DNA of 64,000 nt. Source: Phorcus lineatus. Lineage: Eukaryota > Mollusca > Gastropoda > Trochida > Trochidae. Of the stretch, positions 23,431-62,640 are shown in pieces. Every line of letters begins with the position of its first letter. Position 1 is the first letter of the stretch. The stretch covers positions 10,422,001 to 10,486,000 of the forward strand of contig OV121092.1 in assembly GCA_921293015.1 (NCBI GenBank), in the 5' to 3' direction. Position numbers and translations under genes: made by a program. The notes below the pieces were generated by a model that saw only the letters and a program-made list of their open reading frames with translations, had not been told where the DNA came from and ran no database searches.

Positions 23431-24857
23431 CAAAAGAAAACTGTGTGTTCTCATGCTGAATTTAATGTCAAAATTTACAAAAGCGATTGTACACTGCGTT
23501 TTCCATGAAAGAGGCTTTGTGTTCATTATTAATAAAATCAAGTCTCTTGTGATGTTATGTTTTCTCTGCCAACAGCAGGTTACCTTGTTGAGCATTAAAT
23601 TGATCAGTGTTTCGCTTTCGCCAAAATTGCTTGTTTAATCTCAAGCACAAAACCCTCGAACTTCTTACACATTGGTGAACTCGTGTGTAAAGTACGAAAA
23701 AGAACAAATATTTTATTATCATATTGCATTTCGTATGGAAGAATGGATATACGACGCTGCTGAATACTATCGTATTTTCATTAATAGACCCCTGTCTCCA
23801 ATTGCAACAAGCGCAGGGCTCTGATTACGTCAAAAAGCGGCGTCAAAGGGTGCTGAACAAATAATTGCCTGGGTGGAAGTCCGTTATAACCCCTGATTCA
23901 TGGGGGACAAATTTTGATTATTTAACGTTATTATTCGTCTCTTATTGTCTCCATTCAAAAGAAGCGCCGAGAGTAGCGATAGACCCCTCTCTTTACTTAC
24001 CCAAACTTTCTATCGGAGGTTATACTCACCCCATTCTCCCACAAAGGTGACCCGGGTCAGTTATTCTTCCGGTGACACCTCTGTTACGAGTAGACTGCTT
24101 TCAGGGCTACATATACAGAATCCTGACGTTGATCATTATGTCTATTAATGTTCTTGTCGACTTCCTCCGTTGGGGCAATGTTCATTATTTCTTACAGTAA
24201 CTCGTTGATTCAAAACCAAAGAGATTCACATGACACAAAACCTTGCTAGATTATGAAGAACAGAGATATAGGGTCATTTCTTGATTTTATTATTTTCACT
24301 ATTGTTTTACCTTACTTCATATTGTTATACATGACCTGAAAAGCTACAGAAACAAATTGCCTCTCATAATTAGTAGAATTTTGTCATTAAAATATATACA
24401 TTCTGTCTGTAAGAACTTTTAGCTCGAGACGGGTGGTTGATGATATGATTAACTTCGATATTTCTACAACACAATATAAAAGAACTCGAATTCTATAAAC
24501 AAATCTATAAAACCTCATACGGCCTCAGAAAGGTCTTCTTTGGTACAATTCATAATTTCGCATATACTTATGTGATAACTCTTTCTTATTCGCATGCATA
24601 TTAGAACGAGACAATGTAGGGGAGACAGTGAATTTTAATTGACGAAATCACATTTACATTTAAAATACACCTCTAACTTATACAGTCAGGTAAAAAATTC
24701 TTTAAAAGATTTACGATTAAAAGGCATCACATTGTTTCTTTTAAGAGAAGCATTAATAGTCTGTAACCCGGGTGTGTGGGTGGTCGCTGCCTGGTCGGCC
24801 GGTGAGAGACTAGTTCCGTGCAGGTAAATGCACGTGCAGGGGCTCTTCGTACGTTTC
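23431..24857. other. Non-coding stretch
   Basis: Short open frames only (for example 23865-24050). The 'aatcacatttacatttaaaatacac' phrase at 24645 recurs at 25397 beyond the MITE, so the MITE flank is partly duplicated. Confidence 0.5.
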
Positions 24858-34621: not shown

Positions 34622-37600
34622 TTGACATAATTGCTCATTAGTACTAATAAATGTTTTTCAGGAATGCCCGAACGTCTGTTTTTGTATTTTTTTCAGCTTT
34701 TCGCTGTTTTTTCTTTATTTTCTTATTTTTATGGGTTGTTGGTTTGTGTTGATAGTTTTTGTAATTATTGCTCATTAGTACTAGTAAATGTTTTTCAGGA
34801 ATGCCCGAATGTCTGTTTTTGTATTTTTTTCAGCTTTTCGCTGTTTTTTCTTTATTTTCTTACTTTTATGGGTTGTTGGTTTGTGTTGATAGTTTTGTAA
34901 TTATTGCTCATTAGCACTAGTAAATGTTTTTCAGGAATGCCCGAACGTCTGTTTTTTGTATTTTTTTCAGCTTTTCGCTGTTTTTTCTTTATTTTCTTAC
35001 TTTTATGGGTTGTTGGTTTGTGTTGATAGTTTTTGTAATTATTGCTCATTAGTGCTAGTAAATGTTTTTCAGGAATGCCCAATCGTCTGGGTTTTTTTAT
35101 GTTTTCAGCTTTTTGCTGTTCTTTCTTTATTTTCTTACTTTTTTGGTTGTTGGTTTGTGTTGATAGTATTTGTAAATATTGCTCATTAGTACTAGTAAAT
35201 GTTTTTCAGGAATGCCCGAACGTCTGTTTTTTGTATTTTTTTCAGCTTTTCGCTGTTTTTTCTTTATTTTCTTACTTTTTTGGTTGTTGGTTTGTGTTGA
35301 TAGTTTTTGTAATTATTGCTCATTAGTACTAGTAAATGTTTTTCAGGAATGCCCGAACGTCTGTTTTTTGTATTTTTTTCAGCTTTTCGCTGTTTTTTCT
35401 TTATTTTCTTACTTTTGTGGTTGTTGGTTTGTGTTGATAGTTTTTGTAATTATTGCTCATTAGTGCTAGTAAATGTTTTTCAGGAATGCCCGAACGTCTG
35501 TTTTTGTATTTTGTTCAGCTCTTTGCTGTTCTTTCTTTATTTTCTTACTCTTTTGGGTTGTTGGTTTGTGTTGATAGTTTTTGTAATTATTGCTCATTAG
35601 TACTAATAAATGTTTTTCAGGAATGCCCGAACGTCTGTTTTGGGTTTTTTTTCCAGCTTTTCGCTGTTTTTTCTTTATTTTCTTACTTTTATGGGTTGTT
35701 GGTTTGTGTTGATAGTTTTTGTAATTATTGCTCATTAGTGCTAGTAAATGTTTTTCAGGAATGCCCAATCGTCTGGGTTTTTTTATGTTTTCAGCTTTTC
35801 GCTGTTTTTTCTTTATTTTCTTACTTTTATGAGTTGTTGGTTTGTGTTGATAGTTTTTGTAATTATTGCTCATTAGTGCTAGTAAATGTTTTTCAGGAAT
35901 GCCCAATCGTCTGGTTTTTTTTATGTTTTCAGCTTTTTGCTGTTCTTTCTATATTTTCTTACTTTTTTGGTTGTTGGTTTGTGTTGATAGTATTTGTAAA
36001 TATTGCTCATTAGTACTAGTAAATGTTTTTCAAGAATGTCCGAACGTCTGTTTTTTGTATTTTTTTCAGCTTTTCGCTGTTTTTTCTTTATTTTCTTACT
36101 TTTTTGGTTGTTGGTTTGTGTTGATAGTTTTTGTAATTATTGCTCATTAGTACTAGTAAATGTTTTTTCAGGAATGCCCGAACGTCTGTTTTTTGTATTT
36201 TTTTCAGCTTTTCGCTGTTTTTTCTTTATTTTCTTACTTTTGTGGTTGTTGGTTTGTGTTGATAGTTTTTGTAATTATTGCTCATTAGTGCTAGTAAATG
36301 TTTTTCAGGAATGCCCGAACGTCTGTTTTTGTATTTTGTTCAGCTCTTTGCTGTTCTTTCTTTATTTTCTTACTCTTTTGGGTTGTTGGTTTGTGTTGAT
36401 AGTTTTTGTAATTATTGCTCATTAGTACTAATAAATGTTTTTCAGGAATGCCCGAACGTCTGTTTTGGGTTTTTTTTCCAGCTTTTCGCTGTTTTTTCTT
36501 TATTTTCTTACTTTTATGGGTTGTTGGTTTGTGTTGATAGTTTTTGTAATTATTGCTCATTAGTGCTAGTAAATGTTTTTCAGGAATGCCCAATCGTCTG
36601 GGTTTTTTTATGTTTTCAGCTTTTCGCTGTTTTTTCTTTATTTTCTTACTTTTATGAGTTGTTGGTTTGTGTTGATAGTTTTTTTAACTATTGCTCATTA
36701 GTGCTAGTAAATGTTTTTCAGGAATGCCCAATCGTCTGGGTTTTTTTATGTTTTCAGCTTTTTGCTGTTCTTTCTATATTTTCTTACTTTTTTGGTTGTT
36801 GGTTTGTGTTGATAGTATTTGTAAATATTGCTCATTAGTACTAGTAAATGTTTTTCAAGAATGCCCGAACGTCTGTTTTTTGTATTTTTTTCAGCTTTTC
36901 GCTGTTTTTTCTTTATTTTCTTACTTTTTTGGTTGTTGGTTTGTGTTGATAGTTTTTGTAATTATTGCTCATTAGTACTAGTAAATGTTTTTCAGGAATG
37001 CCCGAACGTCTGTTTTTTGTATTTTTTTCAGCTTTTCGCTGTTTTTTCTTTATTTTCTTACTTTTGTGGTTGTTGGTTTGTGTTGATAGTTTTTGTAATT
37101 ATTGCTCATTAGTGCTAGTAAATGTTTTTCAGGAATGCCCGAACGTCTGTTTTTGTATTTTGTTCAGCTCTTTGCTGTTCTTTCTTTATTTTCTTACTCT
37201 TTTGGGTTGTTGGTTTGTGTTGATAGTTTTTGTAATTATTGCTCATTAGTACTAATAAATGTTTTTCAGGAATGCCCGAACGTCTGTTTTGGGGTTTTTT
37301 TCCAGCTTTTCGCTGTTTTTTCTTTATTTTCTTACCTTTATGGGTTGTTGGTTTGTGTTGATAGTTTTTGTAATTATTGCTCATTAGTACTAATAAATGT
37401 TTTTCAGGAATGCCCGAACGTCTGTTTTGGGGTTTTTTTCAGCTTTTTGCTGTTCTTTCTTTATTTTCTTACTTTTATGGGTTGTTGGTTTGTGTTGATA
37501 GTTTTTGTAATTATTGCTCATTAGTACTAATAAATGTTTTTCAGGAATGCCCGAACGTCTGTATTTTGTATTTTTTTCAGCTCTTCGCTGTTTTTTCTTT

Positions 37601-38465
37601 ATTTTCTTACTTTTATGGGTTGTTGGTTTGTGTTGATAGTTTTTGTAATTATTGCTCATTAGTACTAATAAATGTTTTTCAGGAATGCCCGAACGTCTGT
37701 TTTTGTATTTTTTCAGCTCTTCGCTGTTCTTTCTTTATTTTCTTACTTTTATGGGTTGTTGGTTTGTGTTGATAGTTTTTGTAATTATTGCTCATTAGCA
37801 CTAGTAAATGTTTTTCAGGAATGCCCGAACGTCTGTTTTTGTATTTTTTCAGCTCTTCGCTGTTCTTTCTTTATTTTCTTACTTTTATGGGTTGTAGGTT
37901 TGTGTTGATAGTTTTGTAATTATTGCTCATTAGTACTAATAAATGTTTTTCAGGAATGCCCGAACGTCTGTTTTTGTATTTTTTCAGCTTTTCGCTGTTT
38001 TTTCTTTATTTTCTTACTTTTATGGGTTGTTGGTTTGTGTTGATAGTTTTTGTAATTATTGCTCATTAGTGCTAGTAAATGTTTTTCAGGAATGCCCGAT
38101 CGTCTGTTTTTTTATGTTTTCAGCTTTTTGCTGTTCTTTCTTTATTTTCTTACTTTTTTGGTTGTAGGTTTGTGTTGATAGTATTTGTAAATATTGCCCA
38201 TTAGTACTAGTAAATGTTTTTCAGGAATGCCCGAACGTCTGTTTTTTGTATTTTTTTCAGCTTTTCGCTGTTTTTTCTTTATTTTCTTACTTTTTTGGTT
38301 GTTGGTTTGTGTTGATAGTATTTGTAAATATTGCTCATTAGTACTAGTAAATGTTTTTCAGGAATGCCCGAACGTCTTTTTTTTGTATTTTTTTCAGCTT
38401 TTCGCTGTAATTTCTTACTTTTTTGGGTTGTTGGCTTGTGTTGATAGTTTTTTTAATTATTGTTG
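34622..38465. repeat. 137-bp satellite array with six-monomer higher-order repeat
   Basis: About 28 units of ~137 bp, each with 'attgctcattagtactagta', 'aatgtttttcaggaatgccc', 'gaacgtctg', a T-rich middle and 'gttggtttgtgttgatagt'. Blocks starting at 35453, 36278 and 37102 (spacing 825 and 824 bp, six monomers) are almost identical, a higher-order repeat. The plus strand is very T-rich. Overlapping open frames in both strands repeat with the unit and are not genes. Confidence 0.95.
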
Positions 38466-41255: not shown

Positions 41256-42748
41256 CTATCCAAAAAAAGAAACGCATAGCCAGATTTGTTAGGAGAAATT
41301 GTTGTATATTCAAACGCATTTAAATTCAAAGGAAATGAAGTTACAAGTGTGATTTTTTACATCAGATTTAAAGAGATATCAATTAACAAAATTACGTAAA
41401 AATGTTAGATATGGCTTTCACAATATTTCACAGACGTCCGTAGAAAGTCAGTATCTGCTGTGGCCACCTTGTGCGTTGATGACAGTTCTCACCCGCCTTG
41501 GCATTGACTGGACTAGACGCTATATGGTTGGTTTTGGAATCGTCTGCCACTCCTGCTGCACAAATAAAGCCAGTTCTTGTAGGGTTTGTGGCTGTTGTTG
41601 ACGCTGACGAAGACGTCGACCAAGTTCATCCCAAAGATGCTCAATCGGGTTCAAATCTTGGTAACGAGACGGCTATTGGAACTTATTAATGTTGTTTCTG
41701 GCGAGGAATTCTCCAGTGACTCATCCATCATGTGGCCTGGCGTTGTCCCGCTGGGACAGTTCACGTTGGACGTCAATAACGGGCAGGAGGTGTAGCTGCA
41801 GGATGTTGTCTCTGTGTATTAAATTGATACGACCAGTGTACGATATCGCCGCCCACATCATAACGCTGATTCCACCAAATCTGTCCACCTCAAGAACACA
41901 GTAAGCGGCAAAACGTTCGTCCCGACGTCATAAAACACGGTTTCCGCCATCTCGCCTCCGCAATAGGAAGTTGGATTCATCACTGAACCAAACTAGGCGC
42001 TAGTTGCGAAAATTCCAAACACTCACTGTGTTACACCAACGAAGTCGATTGACAAGGTGTTGACGACGTAGAACGTTGCCAACGTAGGGTCTCCTGGCTC
42101 TCAATCCATGCTCCCTCAACCTGTTCCGTACAGTCTGGCTTGAAATTCTTCTCAGTCCTGGTATGTAGCCTGCAGTACTCTCGGCGGTAGTTGTGCGATA
42201 ACGCAAATGGATGCCCCGGATGAAGCGATCTTGAGCTGGTGTGGTGACACATGGCCAGCCTGAATGAGGACGGTCATTTGTCGTGTTGGTCTTGACGAAC
42301 CTGGCGAAAAGTCTTGAAATGGTGCTTTGGCTAACATGGAAACATCCTGCTACCGAAGATTGGGACTCTCCAGCTTGAAGTCTTCCGATGGCGATGTTTC
42401 TTGTTATAGCGTCAAGACGTGCCACCATGGAGTGTCTTTTAATCAATCTCCAAACAAGTGGCAAATCCGAATGCGGTATCCCTTTTTAAAGCAACACACT
42501 GCATGTATTTTCTACAAAAGTTTCACGTGCGCAAAAAATTGCGTTGTGGCGAAGCGTTTTTGATTTACCCTTAAAATGTTCAACAAAGTCAACATTTCGA
42601 TGTAAGATCCATTTTTGGAAAAGAAAACGAAAGCAACTTGTCAGTATCATCAATATCATTACTTTTTTGGACAATAAAATTAATACAAATAAAAAATATT
42701 TCGATTTCAATTATGAAAAATTACCTATGCGTAACTTTTTTGGGATAG
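41256..42748 (-). mobile_element. Complete Tc1-like transposon (1493 bp)
   Basis: TIRs of ~26 bp: left CTATCCAAAAAAAGAAACGC + atag at 41256, right ctatgcgtaacttttttggg + atag ending at 42748. TA stands on both sides (41254-55 and 42749-50), the normal Tc1/mariner target duplication. One minus-strand transposase gene fills it. Length and layout are standard for the family. Confidence 0.85.
41448..42464 (-). pseudogene. Tc1-like DDE transposase, lightly decayed
   Basis: The first 154 codons are open (42464-42000). They hold ARLDAITRNIAIGRLQAGES and QSTISRLFARF (helix-turn-helix), RPHSGWPCVTTPAQDRFI (linker) and SSQTVRNRLREHGLRARRP (second HTH). The catalytic part follows with defects: WFSDESNFLL (first Asp), ISYTGRINLIHRDNILQLHL, LSQRDNARPH (second Asp), [19 protein letters not shown] (Glu), and the end QGGHSRY-stop at 41448-41450. 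In-frame stops occur after GNRVL, after DNARPHDG, before PSRYQDLN and after PKPTI. The DNARPH-to-NPIEHLWDE spacing is consistent with a D34-type second interval. It acts on the TIRs of 41256-42748 but is now inactive. Confidence 0.85.
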
Positions 42749-45700: not shown

Positions 45701-46846
45701 CCACGTGACATCAAAGAGTTCATTAAGCGCCATAGAAATTAAGCAGATACGGCTTCTCTATCGTCAACTCTAAATTCGCTATTAAGTTCAGGTTCTTCAA
45801 TCTCACTAGTCCAATTCTCAAGAAATGTAATAGTAACAAGTGTCGTATATCACATTCAATAACCTTTGTAAAAGATATTGTTAAGGGATTAATCTTGTCA
45901 ATGTTGGAACCACACAGATAATGAATTAAGACACAACATGTTTTACTTTCATAGAGGTTTTGATGTAAAATCAGTTTTATTCGAAAATATAAACTGGAAT
46001 ATAAAATATGGAACTTTTAATATCAGTGCACGAATTTATAAATTTAACAGGCAGATTTGCAAAATGATTTATTGGTTGATTATAATTCAATTTTCTGCAT
46101 TACTTGCATTTGTTGTGTTTGTAATGACCTTTTGGCGTTTGTATACACAGATTAGCACTCAATTTTCTGCATTAATTGCATTTGTTGTATTTGTAATTAA
46201 CTGTTTCTGTATATAGATATATCATATATTGTAAAATCACCATGACATCACATAAGCCTATGGCTTGTTTACATACCCAATTCTTTTTTTAAATAAATAT
46301 GTTTAAACCATATTGAATTAAGTGATAAGCTTACTGAAGTGTACCTTGCATGCAATCAATCTCTACATGTCAATCGTTCGTTAATAAGGAGTTAAACGCT
46401 GTTAATTAAATTCAAATGGTCTTTTGTTATACTCGTACCAATAACTATGTTCGTTGGTCAATTCGCGGAATTGCAGTACAATAAACTTTATGGCTTTAAA
46501 TAATTAAGACTGTTCTACAATGAATTATTTTTCAAGGTAAATAATGATTTGTAAAGTAACCAAAGACCGGGAGTCTTTATTGAAATAATGGTCACACGGC
46601 GAATGAATCGACACTTAGGTTTATATACTGGTAATTCAAAAATTATTTAATTGCTTAATTAAAGGTTAATGTTTTCAAATGTCGTTGAAATGTATGAAAA
46701 TTAAACGATAACATTTTGACAGTAAGGTCCGTATGAAATATTTACATAAATATATCATCATTTATCAACATAGAGTGTCAAACAAAATATCGAGCGGACC
46801 GTTTCCATGGCTTTTTTTTATATAAAAACAAGCATAGGCACATCTG
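42751..46846. other. 4-kb stretch without a recognised gene
   Basis: 43100-43520 is unusually C/T-rich with short open frames and no motif. 46086-46190 contains a direct duplication ('tcaattttctgcatta.ttgc' plus 'atttgttgt.tttgtaat') inside a 92-codon open frame (45938-46216) of low complexity. I see nothing else. Confidence 0.45.
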
Positions 46847-46890
46847 TAGCGACCCAAACCGGGACACGACCCAAACTGGGGAAATCGATC

Positions 46891-48039
46891 CAAGTTTTAG
46901 ACTCAACTCATTTCCATAATTTGCTGCGGAGAGTTTTAGATCACGTGAAGGAAGTCATTGAAAACTTGTAATGTAGTTTAAATGGAAAACGATTACGGCA
47001 AATTGAAAATCATTGGTCAGAGGTCCATAATATTTGGAAAGGTTTATTTGGTATAAATCACTTATTTTGCCATATGTGTTTCATGAAATATATGAATGAT
47101 AGTGTCAGAGAGGCCCATTTAAACCTAATTTGGAACAACAATGTTCATTTGAGGTAAATCACTTTTAAAGATATTGACATATTTTTCATGCTTATGTAAT
47201 CTAAAAAATGAATGTAAACATTAATGTCCAAATTTGTTTTTATTGTTTTGAATGTCACAGAGTTAGTGATATATAATTATTTATACTTAATCTCCAGTCT
47301 TATGTCACTATATTGATTATGAGTGGTTTGGTACATTGAGAAAGAAAGCTGAATGAAATAATTAGTGGATTTATCAAACCACGTATTTTTAACAGGTGAA
47401 TAAACCTCTGTATGGCGTGCTGCATAGTCTAGTTCGATAACAGTTTTCGCTTCGTTTTTCTTCTACGATTACTAATAATCAGATTGAGTCATGAAGTGTT
47501 TGACCCTCTGAAGATAATGCATTTGGGATAAATATTAACCTCATTTGGGAAAATTTTAAGAAATAAGCTTTCCCAAAACGTGCTACTGCTCCTTTGAAAT
47601 TCTATTTCTTAAGTTTTCTGTCTACTGTCATCGGACTAGGAAAAGAATATATGCTATGTACCAGCTACATATGAATACATTCATAAGTGTAATTTTTCTG
47701 AGATAAAAATATAACCATTTACCATTGAACTTTCAAAAACAAAAAAGATTTTGATAGATTTCCTTCTACAACCTTTCCGCACATTAAAAAACAACAACCC
47801 ATAAATACAAGACGGCATGTCAAGGTTTCATAAATGTATGGGCATAAATGTATATAAGCATAGCCTTGATGTAATCAGGTTATCAAGTTTGGATTGAGGT
47901 TATGACACGAGTATAAACATATTTGTTTTAAAACTTAAATGCGTACCCTCGGCAGAAGAATAGATTTCGTTATGTTTTCCGTCCGCATTTGGTCGAAATT
48001 GTATTCAATTACACTTATGCAAAATTTTCAAAAAGCTTA
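46891..48039. other. Left outer arm, unique sequence
   Basis: AT-rich, no open frame of note, no visible match to the right outer arm (60701-61876). Confidence 0.4.
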
Positions 48040-49575
48040 ACATGTTGAAACAAAATTGCGCACTGTTTGGTGTGCAGTATAGAATTTAAAGACGTTTTAC
48101 CGTTTAGGTCCAGGGTCCAACGAACAATTTCAAAATATGCCAAATAACTAAGAGTTGATGAAAATTAGCCAACCTTATAAAATTCACCCGCGAATCATGA
48201 ATCTATATATATCAAAAGTATAGATTTTAAAGGCGTTTCAAAATTGATATATTCAAACTTATGTCAAATATCTATTGCGCATATCAAAATTGATATATTC
48301 AAACTAAAAAAATAAAATATCTATTAGTTGACAAAAGGTAGCCAAACTTGCCAGATCATCGTGTATCATGATTATATACATGTTAAAACAAAATTGGGCA
48401 CCATTGGGACGAAAATATAAATTTTAAAGACGTTTTCCCGTTTTGGGTCGAGGTCCTGTCAAAATTAACAAATTCAGACCTATGTAAAATATCTAATAGT
48501 TGACCAATGGTAGACAAACTTGCCAGATCATCGTGTATCATGAATCTACACACGTTAAAACAAAATTGCGCACCATTAGGTCAAAAGTATAGATTTTAAA
48601 GACGTTTTCCCGTTTTGGATCGAGGTCCTGTGAAAATTAACAAATTCAAACCTATGTAAAATATCTAATAGTTGACCAATGGTAGACAAACTTGCCAGAT
48701 CATCGTATATCATGAATCTACACACGTTAAAACAAAATTGCGCACCATTGGGACCAACATATAAATTTTAAAGACGTTTTCCCGTTTTGGGTCGAGGTCC
48801 TGTCAAAATTAACAAATTCAGACTTATGTAAAATATCTAATAGTTGACCAATGGTAGACAAACTTGCCAGATCATCGTGTATCATGAATCTACACACGTT
48901 AAAACAAAATTGCGCACCATTAGGTCAAAAGTATAGATTTTAAAGACGTTTTCCCGTTTTGGGTCGAGGTCATGTCAAAATTGAAATATTCAAACCTATG
49001 TAAAATATCTAATACTTGATCAATGGTAGCCAAACTTGCCAGATCATCGTGCATCATGACTCTACACGTGTTAAAACAAAATTGCGCACCATTGGGACGA
49101 AAATATAGATTTTAAAGGCGTTTTCCCGTTTTGGGTCGAGGTCCTGTCAAAATTGATATATTCAAACCTATGTAAAATATCTATTAGTTGACCAATGGTA
49201 GCCAAACTTGCCAGATCATCGTGCATCATGAATCTACACATGTTAAAACAAAATTGCGCACTATTGGGACGAAAATATAGATTTTAAAGGCGTTTTCCCG
49301 TTTTGGGTCGAGGTCCTGTCAAAATTGAAATATTCAAACCTATGTAAAATATCTAATACTTGACCAATGGTAGCCAAAGTTGCCAGATCATCGTGTATCA
49401 TGAATCTACACATGTTAAAACAAAATTGCGCACTATTGGGACGAAAATATAGATTTTAAAGACGTTTTCCCGTTTTGGGTCGAGGTCAAATATCCAATAG
49501 TTGACCAAAGAAAACCAAACTTCCAGATCATCGTGTATCGTGAATCTACATATGTTAAACATAATTATGCACTAT
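48040..49575 (+). repeat. 172-bp satellite array, left, first part
   Basis: The phrase 'cgttttcccgttttgggtcg' recurs at 48431, 48603, 48775, 48947, 49119, 49291 and 49463, always 172 bp apart. Two more degenerate or truncated units lie upstream. Other constant parts are 'acttgccagatcatcgtg.a' and 'gttaaaacaaaattgcgcac'. The array is cut at 49575 by a LINE and resumes at 53592. Confidence 0.95.
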
Positions 49576-50049
49576 ACAGAGAGCAAAACCAAAGTCTTGG
49601 AGATCCTCAACAAGGCTAGAGAAGGGAAGGAACTCCCCCCTCTCGTCCCCCGTGATATTGAAAGAGCACACAGGATATCGACCAGGAAGACTGACTCCCC
49701 TAGACCAGTTATAGTGAAGATATGTCACTGGGAGGATAAATGGCACTCGGTAAAGATGAGGGGTATACTAAAAGATCAAGGTGTCGGGATCGCAAATGAC
49801 CTAACATCGACACAGCGACAGGAGCTCCACAGAAAGAGAAGTGATCACCCAGACAGGAGGTTCTACTATAAGGGTAATAAACTTATGGACGAGCCGAGAG
49901 AACCACCTGTCGACCGGGACAGTACCACGAGCACACAACAAGACACACAGCGATCTTCTACTTCGCAAGGAAGCACACGACAGAATCAAGATCGCAGTCG
50001 TGAATTGAGATCAGGACCCCGTCGCTCGAACAGAAATCAGTACAGATAA
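49576..50049 (+). pseudogene. LINE ORF1, C-terminal part
   Basis: In the frame ending at TAA 50047-50049: SKTKVLEILNKAREGKELPP, RDIERAHRIS, RPVIVKICHWEDKW, ILKDQGVGIANDLTSTQRQE, then a serine/arginine/glutamine-rich basic tail. The IERAHRIS...RPVIVKI...LKDQGV order is that of LINE ORF1 RNA-binding proteins (RRM plus C-terminal domain, L1/transposase-22 type). These coat the element RNA and act as nucleic-acid chaperones. The N-terminal coiled coil is lost at the insertion breakpoint. The frame opens upstream through satellite DNA (from 49501), which is not part of the protein. ORF2 follows in the same frame after the stop. Confidence 0.75.
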
Positions 50050-53000
50050 TGGGATGGCCAGGGCCAGGATTTTACGGCGCACCCTAGACAATCTATTGAC
50101 ATTAACATAACTGCTGATAAGACAACTGATGATGGCATTGTTAATTTAATATTTTGGAATATATCTGGTTTAAAACAGAAACTAGCCGACAACAACTTCT
50201 TAAATTATATAAAACAATTCGACATAGTTGGCTTAATCGAAACTTGGTGTACTGATATTGATCTAGTTAATTATTTTCCTGACTACATACCTATTAACAA
50301 AGAAGCTGAGAAAATATCACATTGTGGGAGACTTTCTGGTGGAATTATTGTTTTGATAAAAAGTGAACTTGATACATTTATAAAATGGAAAAAGATAACT
50401 GAAAATAGCATATTTATCTTATTTGACAAATCCTTGTTTGATCTAAAATGTGACCTTTTGTATGCTTGTAACTATATTCACCCAGAAAAGTCCACATGGT
50501 ATGATCAGCCGTCGCTGGATTGTAAAAATGGAATTACTATGTTTCAAAATGATCTTTTAGAAATAATTTCAGGTTTGCCAGATGTTTGTATCTTGTGTGG
50601 CGGCGATTTTAATGCACGAACTGGTACAAAGCAAGACTTTGTTGAAGATGATATTTTGGAATACACGGAAAACGAAAAGCAATCGCAGGCGTTTTTCTGC
50701 CGACAAGATAGTAAACAACTTTGGTAAACATTTGCTAGATCTATGTTCGATCCTCAATATCCATATCATGAACGGGAGATGTGGTTCTGACTCAGAAACT
50801 GGGGATTTTACGTTTATCGGATCAAACGGAGCTAGCGTGATCGATTATGTTATAGCCTCTACGCCGCTATTTGATTTTGTCAGAGATTTCACTATACCGT
50901 CCAGAGCAGAGTCAGCCCATCTCCCGGTCACGTTGAAGTTACGAGCGCTTCATGCTCGACGGTCTGATGTGTTAGATAACGCCAGCAGTGGTGATATCGG
51001 TTTTAAGCTCTCTTGGAATAATGACAAATTAGAACAATTTAGACAAAATATTTTATCTGAGAATGTTCAAGAACTCCTTGATAAATCAGTAGACAATGTA
51101 TTCACATGTATTGATAGAAGCATAGACCTCATCGTTGAGGCACTTTGTCTAGCGGCATCAGATATGAAGAGCAAACGTAGGATAAGTAATAGTATACATG
51201 AAAATGACTGGTTTGATAAAGAATGCCGGAGATTGAAATTTGAACGCTGTAGATCACTGAACAGATTTAGAAAATATAAAGATAGAAAACTATAACAAGA
51301 CAAGAAATAAATATAATTCTGTGTGTAATCATAAGCGTAAGGAATACTACAAAAGAAAGCAAGAATTGATAGAAAACAGCATTAATGATTGTAAAAGATT
51401 TTGGAATGAGTTAAAACTCCTTAATGCAAGGCCTGTGGAAAGAAATGAAATTCACGCAAACGATTGGTTTGAACATTTCAAAAGCCTATTTTCGTGCGAT
51501 AATTCAGTTAATACCGATGATTCTGTAAATATTCGCCAGTGCGTAGATCCAAATCTTGAACTGTCAAAACAAATACTTGATTTGCCTATATCTAGAGAAG
51601 AAATATCAGACAGCATTCAAAGTCTAAAAAGTGGAAAATCTCCAGGAATAGACAACGTGATACCAGAATTTTTTAAGTACTCTGCTGACCTTATACTACC
51701 GTATCTAGATTTAGTATTTAATCAGATACTAGAAACAGGAAATTTCCCTATGGAGTGGTCAATGGGAATTATAGTGCCGATACATAAAAATGGTGATGTG
51801 AACAACGTAAATTACTATAGAGGCATTACACTTTTGAGTATTTTCAGTAAAATATTTACTTCGATTATCAATAAGAGATTAGTATTTTGGGGAGAATCAA
51901 TGAATAAATTGACAGAATGCCAGGCAGGCTTTAGACGAGGTTATACAACTATTGATAATATGTTTGTTTTACAAAGTATTGTACAAAGATATCAAAATCA
52001 GAAAGGGGGGAAATTTTATGCTCTATTTTTCGATTTTTCAAAAGCTTTTGACTCTGTCCAAAGAAACAAACTATGGCACTTTATGAATTTAGGTGGTGTA
52101 AGCCCAAAAATGAATAAACTACTACAGAGCATATATGAAAATGTCAAGGCTTGCGTCCGAAATAATAATATATTTTCAGACACTTTTGAAATACAGGTGG
52201 GAGTGAGACAAGGGTGTGTACTGAGTCCATTTTTATTTTCCTTTTTCATAAATGAATTGGCTACACAGATTGAGAATAATTGCCAGCATGGAGTACAATT
52301 ACACCCCGATGTATTTCAACTATTTCTTCTACTTTTTGCAGATGATATCGTTCTTATATCAAGCACTATTATAGGTCTTCAAAAACAAATTTATGAACTA
52401 GAAATATTTTGTGATAAGTCTAAGCTGAAACTAAATCTGGATAAAACAAAGGTATTAGTATTCAAAAATGGTGGAAAACTCTCAAAAAAAGAAAAATGGT
52501 ATTATAAAGAGTGTGAACTTGAAACAACAAATTGTTATAAATATCTCGGAGTATATTTTAGTAACCAGTTATCATGGTCTGTGCATGCGAATTATGCAGC
52601 AGTTCAGGCAAAGAAAGTATTATTAGGGATCCTTAGACAATTAACTGTTGTAGGTGACCTCAGCATGAACTCCTTTTTTAAAATATTTGACGTAAAGATA
52701 TACCCTATTCTTCTATATGGGGCAGAAATTTGGGGACTAAATACATTTGCAAATCTAGAAATGGTACATCTGTATGCATGTAAAAAGTTCTTGGGTGTCA
52801 AACAAAACACACCAAACATTATGGTTTATGGAGAATGTGGCAGATATCCTTTATACATCTACTCCTATTGTAAAGTAATTCGGTATTGGATAAAACTGTT
52901 ACATATGCCATCATATCGACTACCTAAGAAATGCTATAAAATGATGATTTTATATGATAAAAATGGACATAAGAATTGGGTAACTGATGTAAAACAACTA

Positions 53001-53528
53001 CTATTTTCAATTGGTTTTGGAAATATATGGCTCAGCCAAAATGATGGTGTGAACTTAGACTTCATGAACATATTTACCCAAAGACTTAAAGATATCTATT
53101 TTCAAAACTGGCAAGAAAAGATTAATGCTTCAAGCAAATGCAACCTTTACTCTGTGTATAAGAACAGTATGAATACCGAATTATATCTAACTTGTCTAAA
53201 TGTGAAAAAGTATAGGATAAATTTAGCACGTTTTAGATGTTCATCGCATGACCTATTCATTGAGAAAGGCAGATATGTAAATATAAGTAGGGAAAATAGA
53301 GTTTGCAAACTCTGTAATTTGAATGCTATTGAAGATGAGTACCATTTCCTACTTGTTTGTCCAAGTTACTTTAATATTCGAAACGAATATATAAAAAACA
53401 AATATCATGTCAATCCTAATAAATGTAAATTTAAGGAATTATTAAACAGCACGAGCACTCGAGAACTAAAAAATCTGTCCATGTATATATATTATGCATT
53501 TGTACATAGAACGCATGTTGTTACTTGA
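50050..53528 (+). pseudogene. LINE ORF2: APE-type endonuclease and reverse transcriptase, two frameshifts
   Basis: Segment 1 (to ~50685) has endonuclease motifs FWNISGL, VGLIETW and CGGDFNART. Segment 2, in another frame (~50690-51290), has GDFTFIG, ASVIDYVIAS and ESAHLPV, where the usual catalytic Asp of S-D-H is Ala. Segment 3 (about 51276-53528) is the open 735-codon frame with reverse transcriptase: KSGKSPGIDNVIPEFFK, PIHKNGDVNNVNYYRGITLL, AGFRRGYTTIDNMF, LFFDFSKAFDSVQRNKLW (first catalytic Asp), VGVRQGCVLSPFLFSFFIN, LLFADDIVL (catalytic Asp pair), LNLDKTKVLVF and YLGVYFS. It ends in a cysteine knuckle CKLC...DEYHFLLVCP. No RNase H motif is seen. Single-base shifts near 50685 and 51285 break it. 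The clade is not assigned. Confidence 0.9.
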
Positions 53529-53591
53529 ATGTATGCAATGTATTTCATGTACTATAGGCCTATGGCCTCTTAAGTACCAGAATAAAGATTG

Positions 53592-53755
53592 AATTATGCA
53601 CTATTGAGTAAAATATAGCTTTTAAAGACGTTTTCCCGTTTTGGGTCGTTTTATTTTCGAAATTAACAAATTCAAACATTTACCAAAAATTTATTAGTTG
53701 ATCAATCGTAGCTAAACTTGCCAGATAACCGTGTGTAATGAAGTTTGGCGACCCA
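53592..53755 (+). repeat. 172-bp satellite array, left, last unit after the LINE
   Basis: The interrupted monomer resumes ('cgttttcccgttttgggtcg' at 53625) and ends near 'gtgtgtaatgaagtttggcg', where 'cgacccaaact' appears in the orientation of the left terminus. Confidence 0.85.
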
Positions 53756-54043
53756 AACTAAATTTTTTTAAATAGGGCTCAATAGGTTAGTTGTTAGAAA
53801 CGTTTTCTCTCTTTACATTAACGCGTAATGGTATATAAACCAACATACTAATCCATTGTTCTTGACGATTTCGTAGATTACTTAAAAACATTTGTCATTG
53901 TTTTGGAGCACAGTTCACTTTTAATCAAGAGGTTTCATTAAGCCGCCTCCAACTTAAATAGATTGCATCACTGTTTATCATATTCTCATGATTTCACTAG
54001 TATAAAATTGTTTTTTTAATGCTTTTCTTATTTGCTAATCAGA

Positions 54044-54110
54044 TTTGATAAACACCAACAGTTTTTATCTATTGATTTTGGCCAGGCATATGACTGTATA
54101 TACATTGAAA
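54044..54110 (+). pseudogene. Reverse transcriptase crumb (motif A)
   Basis: One frame reads KHQQFLSIDFGQAYDCI, which fits the F-x-D-F-x-x-A-Y-D-S/C core of LINE reverse transcriptase motif A. Flanking frames are shattered, and 'ttctgaagggagtggtgtaa' at 54229 may be a remnant of the later G-x-R-Q-G region. Confidence 0.3.
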
Positions 54111-55529
54111 TAATTTCTGAATCTTAAAGTTCAAAGTAAATGGCCTTACATTTAGTTTAATAATGTACAGGTTGCATTTTTGATTTCTATAGAAGTTATC
54201 ACATTTATCAATCGGTTGTTATTACCTTCTGAAGGGAGTGGTGTAAGTGCCATATGATATTTAAATATTATCGTATTCTGGTTGTTTTAGTTTTGTGGAG
54301 GAATTTTCTGGTAAGTGACTATAGGCTACTTTCAAACTCAATTAAAAAATATAGTTAGAGTCCTTAAACTGAAATACCGAGGACTGATTAATATGGATGT
54401 TGTCAGTTGATAACGACAAAGTTGAGTCCTGAACCATTCTTAACTTCAGGCTTAAGTGACTAGACTTGGAAGCATTTTACAGACTTCCAATAATTTTCGC
54501 AATAGGGTCTTTACTTGACATCAACCGCAGACCAATTTGATAAATATTACAATTAATTTCAAGTGAGTATCATTTCCCCCATAGTTAATCGTATTAATTT
54601 GATGGATAATCATTTCAAAAACTTTGATCAATTATTCAAATGCTTATCTTCCTTAGCTATAGCATTTTTAAAATGTTGAAATAAGAAAATACTCATATTT
54701 ATTGCTTTCCGACAATTGCTTAGGCACATTATTCTTAAAGTTTACCGTCTAAGGCTCAGAGAGACATACAGAGAGTATATATTTGGTATAAATATTTTGA
54801 ATTTCGAAAATTTAAGATATGAAGTAAGGAGTTAGTAGATACCAAAAATAAGAGAGCCATGGTGTATGTAGTTCAACAGACTTGGTAGTGTTGATGTTCA
54901 AGACGAAGATGTATATCCGTTAGATCTCCAAATGAAATACCAAAATTGTCCAGTGTCAGTGCACTAGATAAGATGTCTTAACACAAATTTCGAAGAAAGT
55001 TGATGAAACCATGTGATATTCCTGAAATCATAATCCTGAAAAGACAACAGATTTGTTTTTTTAAATAATGATAGTCATTCATTCATTTACACAATAGTCT
55101 TATACATTTGCTCTTTTATGTCTTAACGCATTTAAAACAACTAAAACATGCTTTAAATGAGCAAAAAATCTATTTCCAACAACATCCCACTTCTATCTTC
55201 TGACCCCACCACTTTTGTTATCAACCTTTCCCAAATTAACGTTCACCAAACCCCTGCCAATACGCAACAGAAATTGCAAGGGTGTCAGATGTCGACTTGC
55301 TTGTCCCTTTTTACTGTGTGCCCAGTCCACTGTTTGCAAGGGCTGTCTGAACAAGCTCAGTCATACGCTTCAAAATTTATTAATTGTTTTTTAGTTTACT
55401 TTTTAATTGAGCTTCAGACATGAACTTGGGCTCGATTGAATCCTCCTAACCGCATCAATATGATTCAACTTCACTGATCACCTGACAAAGCTTTTGGAAA
55501 TTATTGGCCTTTTTATTTTGCAACCCGAG

Positions 55530-55700
55530 AGCTGCAATCAAGAGGAAGAGGCGCGGCATGTTGACTGCTTGAGTTATGCTTCTTCATGACAATGCTCCAG
55601 GGCACAAGAGTAGTATTGCACAGGCTGCGTTTCAACAATTTGGCTGTTAACATCTTAACCTTCCCCCTACAGTCCAGATCTGTCCAAGTGCATCGAGGTC
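55530..55700 (+). pseudogene. mariner transposase fragment
   Basis: Reads IKRKRRGMLTA-stop-VMLLHDNAPGHKSSIAQAAF, then NLPPYSPDLSKCI. The LLHDNAPxH (second catalytic Asp) and HxPYSPDLxxxD region are hallmarks of mariner (DD34D) transposases. Here the third Asp region is altered and stops interrupt. Only ~55 codons remain, and no TIRs were found. Confidence 0.75.
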
Positions 55701-56662
55701 CAGGGAAAATATATTGAAAAATGAAATCAATATCGCAACCATTGGCTTCTGTTTTATATCCTTTTCGATTAACTTATTTACTTCCCCTCGTAGTAACTAG
55801 CATTCATGATAACTAACAACGTGATTTCGCGTTGTTCGGTTTTCATTCAAAACATTTGTAAGTAGATAAGTGTCTTTTATTTACCTAATCCCTGTCAGAA
55901 ATGTATTTAAATTTGTCTGTATGATCAGTGAAGGGGTTCATATTTTGTTTAAGAAAACTTCCGTTTATTATTTTTCTGTGCATAAGCGGGAGAATCTAAA
56001 TAATGATAATATATATTTTTGACAATGATTGAGGAAATTAGTCATTGATTGATGAGATATGCATTATCAGTGTTTATCATTACAAAATATGTAAAAAAAA
56101 ATGTAATTCAACCGATAGATTTACGATAGGTGGGTAATAACTTAACTGAAATAATGTTTTAAATGCAGACATTTGAACAAAAGATATTTCCTTTGCTGAT
56201 TGTTTTTGTTGTTTTTTAAGAGGGTTATAGTTTGCAAATTTATCAAAGTTTTATTAAATTTGTTTTAAAAGATAGGTGTCAAACCCCTAATTTGTTAATT
56301 GATTATGCATAAGTGCAAAAATTAACATAATATTTTTTACGGAATATCCTAGCTTCGTGCCATAAATGTTTCATGAATGGGAAAACAGTCTACTTCTCAC
56401 GTTCCACATAAATTCAAATATTGCTTAATTACCTGACGAAACTCAAAAACGAAAATTTTAAAGAATTACACTTTATCCTTATTTTGAAACGTAAACTTAC
56501 ACTGGACCAAAATTGTTTTTATCATTATGCTTTAATCATTTCGATTTGAGTCTGAGTTTTAATATCACAGTAATTCGATAAACAAATATCTTCAGAAGAT
56601 CACATTTCACACAAGTCTCTCAGAATTCGTGACGTACCTCTTTGTTATACTAAAAAAACCTT

Positions 56663-56683
56663 CCCCCCCCCCCCCCCCCCCCC
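56663..56683. repeat. Poly-C tract (21 C)
   Basis: An uninterrupted run of 21 cytosines, G-quadruplex-capable on the minus strand. The length could also be affected by sequencing error. Confidence 0.9.
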
Positions 56684-58744
56684 ACGAAGCAAAGCTTCAT
56701 TTGTACAGAGTCAAAATGCAATCTTGCAATATACATGCACAATTTAACCTGTCCATCAAGGTATTGATTGATGGGGAATAGTATTAAGAAAAGATTTTTG
56801 CTCAAAAAATAAGTCAAAATTTCCATTGAAACAAATACGAAATATTTTCTTTCAGAATTCTGAAAATATCAAAAGGCACCGCCTCAGTAGTTGGTTAGTA
56901 CTTATGCAAAGTTTCAGTAAGATTTAAGTTTTTAGTTCTGTTACAGTAATTATAATTATATGAACGGACGGATATATGCCACGTGATATGTATCGTAGCG
57001 ATCAAAACAATTAAAATCCATAATTTCAATTAACACTCAAAACGAGAACTCACATACAGTACACTCAAATGATGTTCTCAAATACCAAGGCAAACATTAC
57101 TAAACAAGAGACTTAATATTAAAAGAATGAATTAGTTTTGAATGAAATAAATATCAGCCATCAGAATTCTGCGCCAAAGCAGAGAACCACAATATTTCCA
57201 TGGAAATCTGAGAAACTGGGAAAGATCTAGACTTGGTTATTGACAAATTTCTACACGACTTATATATTTCAGCAAAGTGAAAGTAGTTCAAAGGTGGTGC
57301 TCTATCGAAAGCTATAAAATCTTCAAGAAGACTGCTAGAGCGCGAGTATACTGAAAATTAGACTTTGAGACAATTTTTGAAAATAACGAACTTCTGTTTC
57401 TGATTTCAATTTCTTGGTCTTCTTGTGTCTTCTTATAGTTTGAATTAGCGTAAATATGACTTAGACTGTTTAAAGTGCTCTTATTTTATACACATTCTTG
57501 GAATTGGACAAGAATGAGACAAAAGACATTGTTTGCCTAGAATAACACATTTCAATACCCCCTTGCTGAGTTGAATATAACCCCAACTGTCATTCTTGCG
57601 TTCATTTCCAGTGTAGAAAATGAACATATCTTAATCATATTTATTGTTATTCAAAGAAGACTTAAACAGAAGAATGTTAAGGTTCAACGCTTTAAAAGCA
57701 CGACCCTAAAATTAAGCTCTTAGAGTTCTTCAAGTTTTGTGTCAAGTGAATCTCAATCTAGTTAAAGCTTGCTGTATTGATAATGTTTCAAGGGATAAAT
57801 CTGATATGTAAGACTGCACAGACTCTGCACAAACATCATACTGAAACAGGATTCGTGAATCCATGGTGATAGTCGTTGATTTATGTATGTTATGGTGGAG
57901 ATTTACATACTAAGTCATAGATACTTTTCTAAATCATTACTAGATTGCAATTATATCAGGGCTACGGTGTTTTAGTCTATGAATCTTTAAGCCAAACATA
58001 ATCTTAAATCTTAAATCTTGAACTACATAGCATTATCCGTTATGCGTTATTCTTAAAATAATTATTGCATTTCCTTAATCTTCGTCTACGTATCTGTTCA
58101 GAGAAGACTATTGCCTGATTGACATAAAAATATCAAGTCATCATATTGAAATGTGGCACTTATCAACTATATGTTATGTTTATGTTAAGTTGGTAATAAA
58201 ATTTATCTGCTTCATTACAGTTATTAGTAACGATTCGTGTTGTTCTATAGCCCATAAGGCTCATCATACAATGTAAACAGTTACAAAAAAATAGAGGCAT
58301 TGGCTCTGTAGCACATGAGGATTCATACACTATATCAATAGGTTTGACAGGCTCACCAAATCTATAAATCTATTAATCTTAGTCTGTACACAAAACAAGT
58401 TATCTAGGCATTCACCAAATCTACAATTAATATCCAATTTTGGCTTATGTACCTCTACACAAGATTAGAGCCTTTTATGACCTTTTTTATTATAGAAGAG
58501 AATGGGCCACATTGGAGGCCACAGAGTGATCAAATATATCAATGTTCTTATCAGTTTGGTCTCAATTGTCATGTTCTTCTTGATCAAAATACTTGCTTTT
58601 AATCCCTTAATCTTGTTACGTGTTCACCTGTATCTGGACCTATACTAGATTGTTTGCGTGATATTCTGTTGATATATTCGGACTTCAACTCAAAGTAGAA
58701 AAACGGAATTCATTTCAATACTATTGACTCAATAGAGCGCAATT

Positions 58745-60700
58745 CGGGTTTTTAAACATATAAATTTCTTTACACACAATGATCTGACAATTTTTGGCTA
58801 CCATTGGTCAAGTATTATATTTGTGGGATAGCTTTGAGTCTGTTAATATTGAGAGGACCTCGACCCAAAACGGGAAAACGTCTTTAATATCTATACTTTC
58901 GACCCAATGGTGCGCAATTTTGTTTTACCATGTATATAATCATAATACAAGATGATCTGGCAAATTTGGCTACCTTCTGTCGAGTATTAGATATTTTACA
59001 TAGGTTTGAATATGTTAATTTTGACAGGACCTCGACCCAAAACGGGAAAACGTCTTTAAAATCTATACTTTTGACCTAATGGTGCGCAATTTTGTTTTAA
59101 CATGTATATAATCATGATACAAGATGACCTGGCAAGTTTGGCTAACTTCAGTCAACTAATAGATATTTTACATAGGTTTGAATATATTAATTTTCAAAGG
59201 ACCTCGACCCAAAACGGGAAAACGTCTTTAAAATCTATACTTTAAAGCTAATGGTGCGCAATTTTGTTTTAACAAGTGTAGAGTCATGATACACGATGAT
59301 CTGGCAAGTTTGGCTACCATTGGTCAACTATTAGATATTTTACATAGGTTTGAATATATTAATTTTGACAGGACCTCGACCCAAAGCGGGAAAACGTCTT
59401 TAAAATCTATACTTTCGAACCAGTGGTGCGCAATTTTGTTTTACCATGTATATAATCATAATACAAGATGATCTGGCAAATTTGGCTACCTTCTGTCAAG
59501 TATTAGATATTTTACATAGGTTTTGATATGTTAATTTTGACAGGACCTCGACCCAAAACGGGAAAACGTCTTTAAAATCTTTATTTTCGACCCAATGGTG
59601 CGCAATTTTGTTTTAACATGTATATAATCATGATACAAGATGATCTGGCAAGTTTGGCTAACATGTTCCGAGTATTAGATATTTTACATAGGTTTGAATA
59701 TATAAATTTTACAGGACCTCGACCCAAAACGGGAAAACTCCTTTAAAATCTTTATTTTCGACCCAAATGTGCGCAATTTTGGTTTAACATGTGTGGAGTC
59801 ATGACACACGATGATCTGGCAAGTTTGGCTACCATTAGTCAAGTATTAGATACTTTATATAGGTTTGAATATATTAATTTTGACAGGGCCTCGACCCAAA
59901 ACGGGAAAACGCCTTTAAAATCTATATTTTTTACCCAATGGTGCGCTATTTTGTTTTAACATGTATATAATCATGATGCACGATGATCTGGCAAGTTTGG
60001 CTACCTTGTGTCAAGTATTAGATATTTTACATAGGTTTGAATATGTTATTTTGACAGGAACCCGACCAAAAACGGGAAAACGCCTTTAAAATCTTTATTT
60101 TCGACCCAATTGTGCGCAATTTTGTTTTGACATGTATATAACCATGATACAAGATGATCTGGCAAGTTTGGCTACCTTGTGTCAAGTATTAGATATTTTA
60201 CATAAGTTTGAATATGTTATTTTGACAGGAACCCGACCCAAAACGGGAAAACGCCTTTAAAATCTTTATTTTCGCCCCAATGGTGCGCAATTTTGTTTTA
60301 ACATGTATATAATCATGATACAAGATGATCTGGCAAGTTTGGCTAACATTTTCCGAGTATTAGATATTTTACATAGGTTTGAATATATAAATTTTACAGG
60401 ACCTCGACCCAAAACGGGAAAACTCCTTTAAAATCTTTATTTTCGACCCAATGGTGCGCAATTTTGTTTTGACATGTATATAACCATGATACAAGATGAT
60501 CTGGCAAGTTTGGCTACCTTGTGTCAAGTATTAGATATTTTACATAAGTTTGAATATGTTATTTTGACAGGACCTCGACTCAAAACGGGAAAACGCGTTT
60601 AAAATATGTACTGTTGACCCAGTGGTGCTTTTTTTTTTAACATGTTTTGGCACATAATTCCGTTAGTCAACTATTGAAAATTTAGCATTGGTTTTAATTT
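58745..60700 (-). repeat. 172-bp satellite array, right, inverted
   Basis: Reverse complement of the left array. 'cgacccaaaacgggaaaacg' recurs at 58861, 59033, 59205, 59377, 59549, 59720, 59892, 60063, 60234, 60405 and 60576 (171-172 bp spacing), plus degenerate end units. Variants such as 'ttccgagtattag' near 59666 and 60352 recur four monomers apart, a hint of higher-order duplication. The small open frame 59286-59471 is a repeat artefact. Confidence 0.95.
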
Positions 60701-61876
60701 GTTAAATATGACTCAAAACGCCAATATCATCTTTACTGATTATTGCGCTGTTTTGTTCACTATTGTACATTTGACATTTTTCTAAGACGCTAAATTTATC
60801 TAACTTTGAACTGACGACATATAGCTGATGTAGGGAAACGTTTTTGGATATATATTCATATTGGTAATCCTAAATATCAGTTCAATATATCTTGAACCTA
60901 ATTTAATCATTTCTAGCACGTATTCGATACAGCATTACAAAATTATAGAATAAATTTTAGCCAAAGTTATTATTTTTTCAAATAACTATACAATGTATAA
61001 TATACATATTACATATGGCGAGATAATTGAATATTTATATATAAGATGCATAACCTATCTACGTCCAATACGATAGTTTGAATATAGAGGTCAAATTAAA
61101 TCTTCGGCATTTTCCCTTGAAATATTTCAAAATGCGATGCAGTTCAACTCATGACGGTTCATTTTCTGTTTTATTTGTTTGATACATTTATTGTTCCCTA
61201 TCATATTTTTTTCTAATTTGAATTGAACTCTAATTTCGATCAATGCATTTTGCTCCCCAATAACTCAAGAGAAAGTCGACACAAAATGTATTTGATCTAC
61301 TTTAACTCAAAGTCTCAACTTTTTCATATTCACATTCAACATTTTACTTCAACCTAAGACCTCGTAATATAAGGATTATCTTTATACCTCTATGTTTGGG
61401 TATTCCTGTTTCCGTTGTTCTAGGCTCCTTTCAAATTTATTTCATATGAGATAGTCAAAGATTAGATAAGTTAGAATGTCATTTTTGTAGAAATAACTGA
61501 TAAGTATGTTTTATTTAGAACACTACATACGTTTAATTTTTGTTTTTAACCTCAATTTATTTTTTATAATGAAAATATTAAGAAAATATTTGTCAGACAG
61601 CAAATAAAAAACAACGAAAGAGACTCAAAACTATTTTCATCAACAGCAATAGTCAACCAGCGTGAGCAGAAAGAAGGTATAGTGATTATGGTTCGTTTCC
61701 ACAACGCAATCCTACTTTTGCAGCTACGGGGCAAATCGCGCTCGACTTTCCAAGCGGACGATATCGAAAATAGGCTAATAAAACCAAAGGCTGCTTTCCT
61801 TGGCACACAAAGGCTTTTTTTCACTTAACCATACCATTTAATGATTTTCAATGAGGCAATTGGATTTATTCATATA
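60701..61876. other. Right outer arm, unique sequence
   Basis: AT-rich. An 86-codon minus-strand frame (61564-61824) has no recognised motif. No visible match to the left outer arm. Confidence 0.4.
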
Positions 61877-61912
61877 GATTTCTCTGTTTGGGTCGTTTCC
61901 CGGTTTGGGTCG

Positions 61913-62640
61913 TAACACGTCCCTCGTGGCCATGTTCATAATCGTTCATGCATAGATATCTTGACTCTTCATTCAGGCATAGTAAGGCCTTGGAAACTGT
62001 GAGTGAAACAGAATTGTACGTAAATCACTGGACCGACACTTGCTTGGGTGGGTAGACATTTCATCTCGCTTTTAGAGTATGTATATCATCTAGTGTATAG
62101 ATTTACTGCATCATCTTTAACAAAATACAGCTGCATGTCAAAAGTTTGTTCACCTACTACTGTATGTTGCTGCTAATATCATATAATTTAGGTTTAGTTT
62201 GAACGTCAATAAAATAACTGTAGGAGAACTGACTAAAGTTAATGTGTGAAGTAGCCATTCTTTAGCTTATTTATTCTTTCCTACAAAAATTCGAATTTTG
62301 ACATGATGAATTAGACAGAAGGGATCATATTTTCGAAATTCCATTTCGACGCTCTGAGACAACATTTAGAAAAAAACATATTGCCTTAATGCAAATGTAC
62401 AAACATGACTTGTGTTTAAAGCTGTTGACCATTCATAAAGGATTTTGTAGAGAAATATACAAATTAGTGTTTTAGAAATTTTAGCCCCTGGTCACTGCAG
62501 TAACCTGCCAAAACTATTACGGTTTAATGTCGGGTGTGGCACACAACTGTTTTTAGGTGCAATATACCTTCGCTTCTATATTGAAAATTTTGAAATAATC
62601 CGTTTCTTTTTCGCATCGCTACAATGCTTTAAAGATATGC
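61913..62640. other. Non-coding spacer
   Basis: Nothing recognised. Confidence 0.4.

Follow-up and report, generated by a model that had tools for sequence, protein, structure and literature searches.

We analyzed a 64,000-nucleotide stretch of the Phorcus lineatus assembly (C19:10422001-10486000, with C-numbers denoting contigs of the 957.8-Mb, 74-contig assembly), referred to here as the window. It contains a large repetitive element in which short inverted ends enclose two arrays of one 172-bp satellite unit, placed in opposite orientation on either side of a core. Together with its copies elsewhere in the genome, this element very probably represents a family of giant non-autonomous DNA transposons with terminal inverted repeats (TIRs), whose mirror-image arms contain a satellite.

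Layout of the element in the window

The initial annotation, made from the sequence alone, described a possible 15-kb foldback-type element bounded by inverted ~36-bp termini. Those termini, CGACCCAAACCGGG, are located at 46850 (+) and 61912 (-), but the element itself extends five bases beyond them at either end (Table 1). Both 172-bp arrays were present where they had been placed, at 48313-49487 and 58779-60628, and degenerate units widen them to approximately the limits given in Table 1. Comparison of the two arms of the window copy showed that the inverted ends extend for only ~45 bp and that the next ~1.2 kb of the arms are unrelated. Ends and arrays share a 17-mer, CGACCCAAAMNGGRAAA, which had 23 matches in the window at ≤2 mismatches against 0.10 expected in shuffled sequence, and which occurs as a tandem pair at each end and once per satellite unit. 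Within an arm, end and array carry the 17-mer on opposite strands: on the left, plus at the end and minus in the array, and on the right the reverse.

A long interspersed nuclear element (LINE) occupies part of the 9.3 kb that separates the arrays, and the core comes to ~4.9 kb without it. The LINE (~4 kb) sits in a satellite unit of the left array, flanked by a 13-bp duplication (AATTATGCACTAT). Two different, overlapping frames of the LINE encode its endonuclease (1.8e-8) and its reverse transcriptase (4.1e-33). A 182-amino-acid (aa) open frame without a Pfam match lies upstream of these. The LINE had no match in ten other copies of the element over the sequence covered, and the 15-kb size of the window copy is inflated by this later insertion. 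Only the LINE provides long coding frames within the window element; the longest stop-to-stop frame in the ten other copies was 147 aa, with none reaching 150 aa. An old mariner is also present, as a remnant in the window and as a stretch of ~1.29 kb with inverted ends GTTGCGATATTGATT in both cores examined for it (copies c1 and c6), and the open pieces of six cores matched Transposase_1 at 2.1e-10 and a Mos1-type helix-turn-helix at 0.0047, the latter below the cut-off. LINE and mariner are passengers in the element. The core mariner was considered as the mobilizing transposase and rejected, because mariner insertion duplicates TA (part of PMC10045372) and because its reading frame is fragmented in the copies examined. 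A search of the window against Rfam returned nothing at gathering scores, and a strict-pattern search for the inner-boundary motif near 53750 matched in the window only.

Table 1. Features of the window element, in positions of the window
Feature	Position	Strand	Basis
Whole element, 15,073 bp, 5'-TGTAG...TAACA-3'	46845..61917		Boundary common to copies with unrelated flanks
Left target-site duplication CACATC, possibly CACGTC after CpG decay	46839..46844	+	Sequence
Right target-site duplication CACGTC, which includes the terminal CA (probable dinucleotide slip)	61916..61921	+	Sequence
Left TIR: TGTAG, then two tandem 17-mers	46845..46889	+	
Right TIR: TGTTA, then two tandem 17-mers	61874..61917	-	
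Left subterminal region, without homology to the right one; occurs in other copies	46890..48039	+	
Main part of left satellite array; 17-mer motif on minus strand	48040..49575	-	
LINE target-site duplication, left copy	49563..49575	+	
Nested LINE, passenger; endonuclease and reverse transcriptase, overlapping frames	49576..53591	+	
LINE target-site duplication, right copy	53592..53604	+	
Left satellite array, final unit, separated by LINE	53605..53756	-	
Core, without long open frame; missing stretches found in other copies	53757..58679	+	
Mariner remnant, 157 bp; two other copies examined have ~1.3 kb of it	55531..55687	+	
Right satellite array; 17-mer motif on plus strand	58680..60646	+	
Right subterminal region	60647..61873	-	

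Copies, target sites and satellite across the genome

Genome searches with the left and right ends gave 40 scored matches each (61 and 62 candidates, respectively), and for 31 of the 40 left ends a correctly oriented right end lay no more than 40 kb away, with 29 of the 40 right ends taking part. The terminal 15-mer TGTWRCGACCCAAAC had 104 end matches against 4 for the reversed pattern. Among the 100 of these matches listed, 29 inward pairs of <30 kb were observed, as well as 4 outward and 10 same-strand pairs; removal of three redundant or nested pairs left 26, of which 24 span 9.3-22.1 kb (median 14.4 kb) and two are small derivatives of 2.4 and 3.3 kb. The inverted pairing on which the initial proposal depended thus recurs at other loci. 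Three right ends on C15 (12094841, 12111417 and 12127981) lie ~16.6 kb apart on one strand without a scored left end and perhaps reflect a tandem duplication.

Ten further copies (c1-c10; 20 kb of sequence each) were analyzed beside the window copy, 11 in all. Their flanks are unrelated, and they share with the window copy a sharp boundary, TGTAG-CGACCC...GGGTCG-T(A/T)ACA, the exceptions being an extra G in c2 and a changed TGT in c8. The 6 bp outside TGT/ACA were identical in 16 of 30 end pairs, compared to 10 of 870 mismatched-pair controls, and all 16 perfect target-site duplications (TSDs) fit N-R-C-G-Y-N. The 30 pairs derive from the 31 paired left ends after exclusion of an overlapping pair at C9:26127220; they include a 1.8-kb copy, and one right end is counted in two pairs. 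For the window copy, the TSD agrees at two of six positions in strict register and at five of six with a 2-bp shift (CACATC/CACGTC).

The mirror orientation of the arrays was found in all 11 copies, with minus-strand motifs only in the left array and plus-strand motifs only in the right. Motif number varied over these copies from 2 to 35 on the left and from 4 to 21 on the right (19.5 of the 22.1 kb of c10 being covered in this count), and the left array of c10 is split into two blocks. When 260 satellite units were compared (no unit of the c2 left array among them), the nearest neighbor came from the same arm for 238 and from the opposite arm of the same element for 6. The two arms hence look, from their sequences, like separate lineages that predate the spread of the element, and homogenization between them, also considered, was not supported by this comparison. 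Five copies (c5, c6, c7, c9 and c10) diverge by only 0.1-0.5% across 1.1 kb of the left end, a comparison from which c3 was omitted, and have 26, 5, 17, 5 and 35 left motifs, respectively; near-identical ends with such different motif numbers point to recent activity and fast turnover of the arrays.

A genome search with the satellite unit gave 596 matches (40 of 118 candidates scored). Among the 150 for which positions were listed, 133 fall between paired ends, in 29 intervals, and the remaining 17 lie ≤15 kb inward of an unpaired end. Satellite independent of the termini, which would have spoken against the initial proposal, was thus not seen among these 150. Because the arrays lie inside an element that recurs with TSDs and apparent excision scars, we conclude that the satellite travels in a mobile element.

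The scars were observed at solo ends. Of the 100 listed end matches 46 were unpaired, and 41 of these were examined, as 40 stretches 140-1,481 bp long (L-numbers below): 16 were family ends, 1 a duplicate, 12 scar-like and 11 unexplained. At 12 of the 23 distinct truncated solo ends, the 6-mer preceding the end is repeated at the break at five or six of six positions (shuffles: mean 3.4, maximum 9, 0/5000 as high), and in 8 of the 23 the repeat is perfect (shuffles: mean 0.7, maximum 5, 0/5000). Such repeats look like excision footprints and can stand in for empty sites only to that extent. The remnant consists of the first 20 bp of the element at eight distinct sites, while one right-end scar (L101) retains 33 bp. 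CACG opens six of eight duplications at the 20-bp scars, compared to 2 of the 16 that flank intact copies (Fisher p=0.005), and bases 21-24 of the element, directly after the remnant, are also CACG. With CACG both at the break and at base 21, microhomology repair would be the simplest reading of the 20-bp scar. L079 (C1:2018392) and L080 (C1:2047656) are identical 420-bp stretches ~29 kb apart with the same 20-bp scar, and perhaps arose by duplication after excision.

Four further features lie in the window outside the element: a 137-bp tandem repeat (34630-38462; 28 copies, 93% matches), a 45-bp tandem repeat (22484-23434; 21 copies) that keeps a 316-aa minus-strand frame open, a Tc3-type transposase fragment (42000-42485; HTH_Tnp_Tc3_2, 1.1e-9) and a Fibrinogen C-terminal domain fragment (26684-27139; 1.6e-13).

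Mobility, mechanism and rival explanations

Judged by sequence, the family behaves as a TIR transposon, with inverted ends at many loci, a fixed 6-bp TSD and footprints. Of the proposal of a giant, probably non-autonomous foldback element, the parts concerning mobility, size and probable lack of autonomy were supported, while a strict foldback with long TIRs, like FB or Galileo, was not. Inverted tandem-repeat arms are present in 11 of 11 copies, and long TIRs continuous with the ends are absent from the window copy. The element is foldback-like and not a strict foldback, because its inverted ends are ~45 bp and the adjoining ~1.2 kb differ between the arms.

We suggest that a transposase from another element would bind the CGACCC 17-mer at the ends, excise the element and reinsert it with a 6-bp stagger. 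The array 17-mers, one per unit, would provide rows of extra putative binding sites that, by analogy with Galileo, may attract the transposase and help to pair the ends. The arrays lengthen and shorten, probably via unequal exchange, and the ends broken by excision could often be sealed through the CACG at element bases 21-24, which would leave the 20-bp scar. By resemblance, the TG..CA ends and the stagger of 6 bp would point to an integrase-type transposase related to GingerRoot/IS3EU, which we offer as a lead.

Among integrase-type sequences, the rve_3 profile gave 130 genome matches and the IS481 transposase profile 63, none of the latter above the cut-off. Many of these matches, in frames of >1,000 aa, were taken for long terminal repeat (LTR) elements, and none of the 54 checked by position fell inside the 29 element intervals. 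Frames at C37:10083645, C16:32855668, C39:35468914 and C25:931492 span most of the IS481 model below the cut-off; they are candidate integrase-type DNA transposons with no link to the element ends. Two solo ends share the terminal 15-mer with the family and little beyond it: single-copy L090 (C9:56880966), which matches the left end at 77% identity across 53 bp, and L108 (C16:46378661), which by eye resembles a diverged right end. These are possibly the ends of a related element, and a gene-bearing relative may exist behind one of the solo ends, of which 140-1,481 bp each were covered.

Several observations weigh against a transposon of this kind or against details of its proposed behavior. 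Genome searches by end sequence and integrase-type profiles found no transposase or autonomous partner, and end variants were no more common than reversed controls at base 15 (22 versus 17) or base 11 (12 versus 26). Thirteen of the 30 pairs, the window copy included, lack a duplication of at least 5/6 in strict register; once shifts are permitted, five or six positions match in 21 of 30 pairs but also in 204 of 870 controls, making the loose score weak. The initial annotation had called for a target duplication or an empty site; the duplication was found (16 of 30 pairs), but a joined-flank search for the empty site of two copies returned none, the flanks being unique. Array motifs face outward in both arms whereas terminal motifs face inward, which a simple continuation of the TIR would not produce, and terminus-unit similarity outside the 17-mer is about the shuffled maximum (left, 25 versus 30; right, 30 versus 29). 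The 2.4-kb copy on C12 has a perfect CACGTA duplication without arrays, which may have been lost after insertion. Eleven of the 23 truncated solo ends have no scar, and two 20-bp scars with GACG duplications fit microhomology less well.

The facing of the motifs could be explained by a composite transposon, in which two shorter inverted array-bearing elements captured the core and now move from the outer ends. In that case the array motif would be oriented like the opposite end, with each arm a short element whose inner end has multiplied; small derivatives (2.4 and 3.3 kb) do exist, and a composite-like layout, in direct repeat, is known for bivalve KolobokP (part of PMC9587614). We nevertheless consider a composite unlikely, since beyond the ~40-bp terminus the subterminal regions of the two arms are unrelated and units cluster by arm (nearest neighbor in the opposite arm of the same element for 6 of 260), so that neither arm is a recent copy of the other. 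It is far less probable still that a recombination product, a satellite locus inverted about a core, was spread via segmental duplication: some copies and scars do lie in duplications (the C15 right ends; L079 and L080), but sharp common boundaries amid unrelated flanks and TSDs in 16 of 30 pairs at many unlinked sites oppose this.

A classic foldback element of the P (Galileo) or Mutator (FB, Tetris) superfamily appears very unlikely. Galileo makes a TSD of 7 bp, and the arms here are not continuous with the ends. The Mutator element Tetris duplicates 8-10 bp, compared to 6 bp here, although its inverted tandem-repeat arms likewise have a short stretch in common with the outer end (in the part of PMC4079207 drawn on). 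A rolling-circle element of Helentron type would account for satellite arrays, which non-autonomous Helentrons of Crassostrea gigas are reported to carry (part of PMC7492417); the arrays here are inverted, and we hold such an element to be scarcely credible, as 6-bp duplications and inverted ends contradict it. Polinton/Maverick elements carry polymerase, integrase and other genes of their own, which are absent from the 11 copies analyzed here. Helitrons and Helentrons are not known to make a TSD, nor Helitrons to have inverted ends.

The giant TIR transposon family with mirror-image satellite arms therefore remains our preferred explanation. Whether it is a new integrase-type foldback-like lineage, defined by an NRCGYN 6-bp TSD and TG..CA ends, internal mirror arrays that stand apart from the ends and would serve as transposase-binding rows, a satellite restricted to the transposon, and a recurrent 20-bp CACG scar, is a more tentative proposal that we put at somewhat below even. 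Here a satellite is dispersed by a large DNA transposon and, among the 150 of 596 matches listed, confined to it. Near-identical copies with several-fold differences in array length offer a test case for satellite birth and spread, and for why some transposons bear long repeated arms, while the CpG-centered target and the recurrent scar make sharp predictions about the transposase.

Comparison with known systems

Literature searches turned up no comparable element, either from molluscs or with a TSD of 6 bp, a weak negative drawn from the best-ranked results only. The nearest architecture met was that of Tetris from Drosophila virilis, which, in the sections of its report used here (PMC4079207), is also non-autonomous, with inverted arms, a variable number of units and an autonomous partner that is unknown. 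Its arms consist of ~220-bp tandem repeats with a 37-bp stretch common to the outer domain. Tetris differs in its longer TSD, in TIRs of up to 1,735 bp where the element here has ~45 bp and unrelated subterminal regions, and in that its repeats also occur in long satellite arrays, whereas no satellite was found outside elements among the 150 of 596 matches listed.

Among molluscan systems, the bivalve pearl element CvA is interspersed and has 2-6 tandem ~156-bp units in its core (part of PMC5874043); compared by description only, it has one short core array in place of two inverted ones. Helentrons of C. gigas resemble the element in dispersing satellite units via a mobile element (part of PMC7492417), and the oyster satellites CgiSat35 and CgiSat47, annotated as IS3EU-related (part of PMC8268682), are a possible parallel. 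Helentron termini and mechanism differ from those of the element.

With respect to superfamily, a GingerRoot-like element would offer a better fit than IS3EU, Mutator or P, which we take as a lead. IS3EU and GingerRoot both share the 6-bp TSD; IS3EU ends are TA..TA and so differ from the TGT..ACA observed here, while GingerRoot ends are TA..TA or occasionally TG..CA, in agreement with the element, and the portion of the source consulted does not mention satellite arms for either (PMC10045372). Galileo of Drosophila has a P-superfamily transposase and long TIRs in contrast to the ~45-bp TIRs here, and its arm tandem repeats hold extra transposase binding sites (part of PMC3688188), a role that the 17-mers of the mirror-image arrays would parallel.

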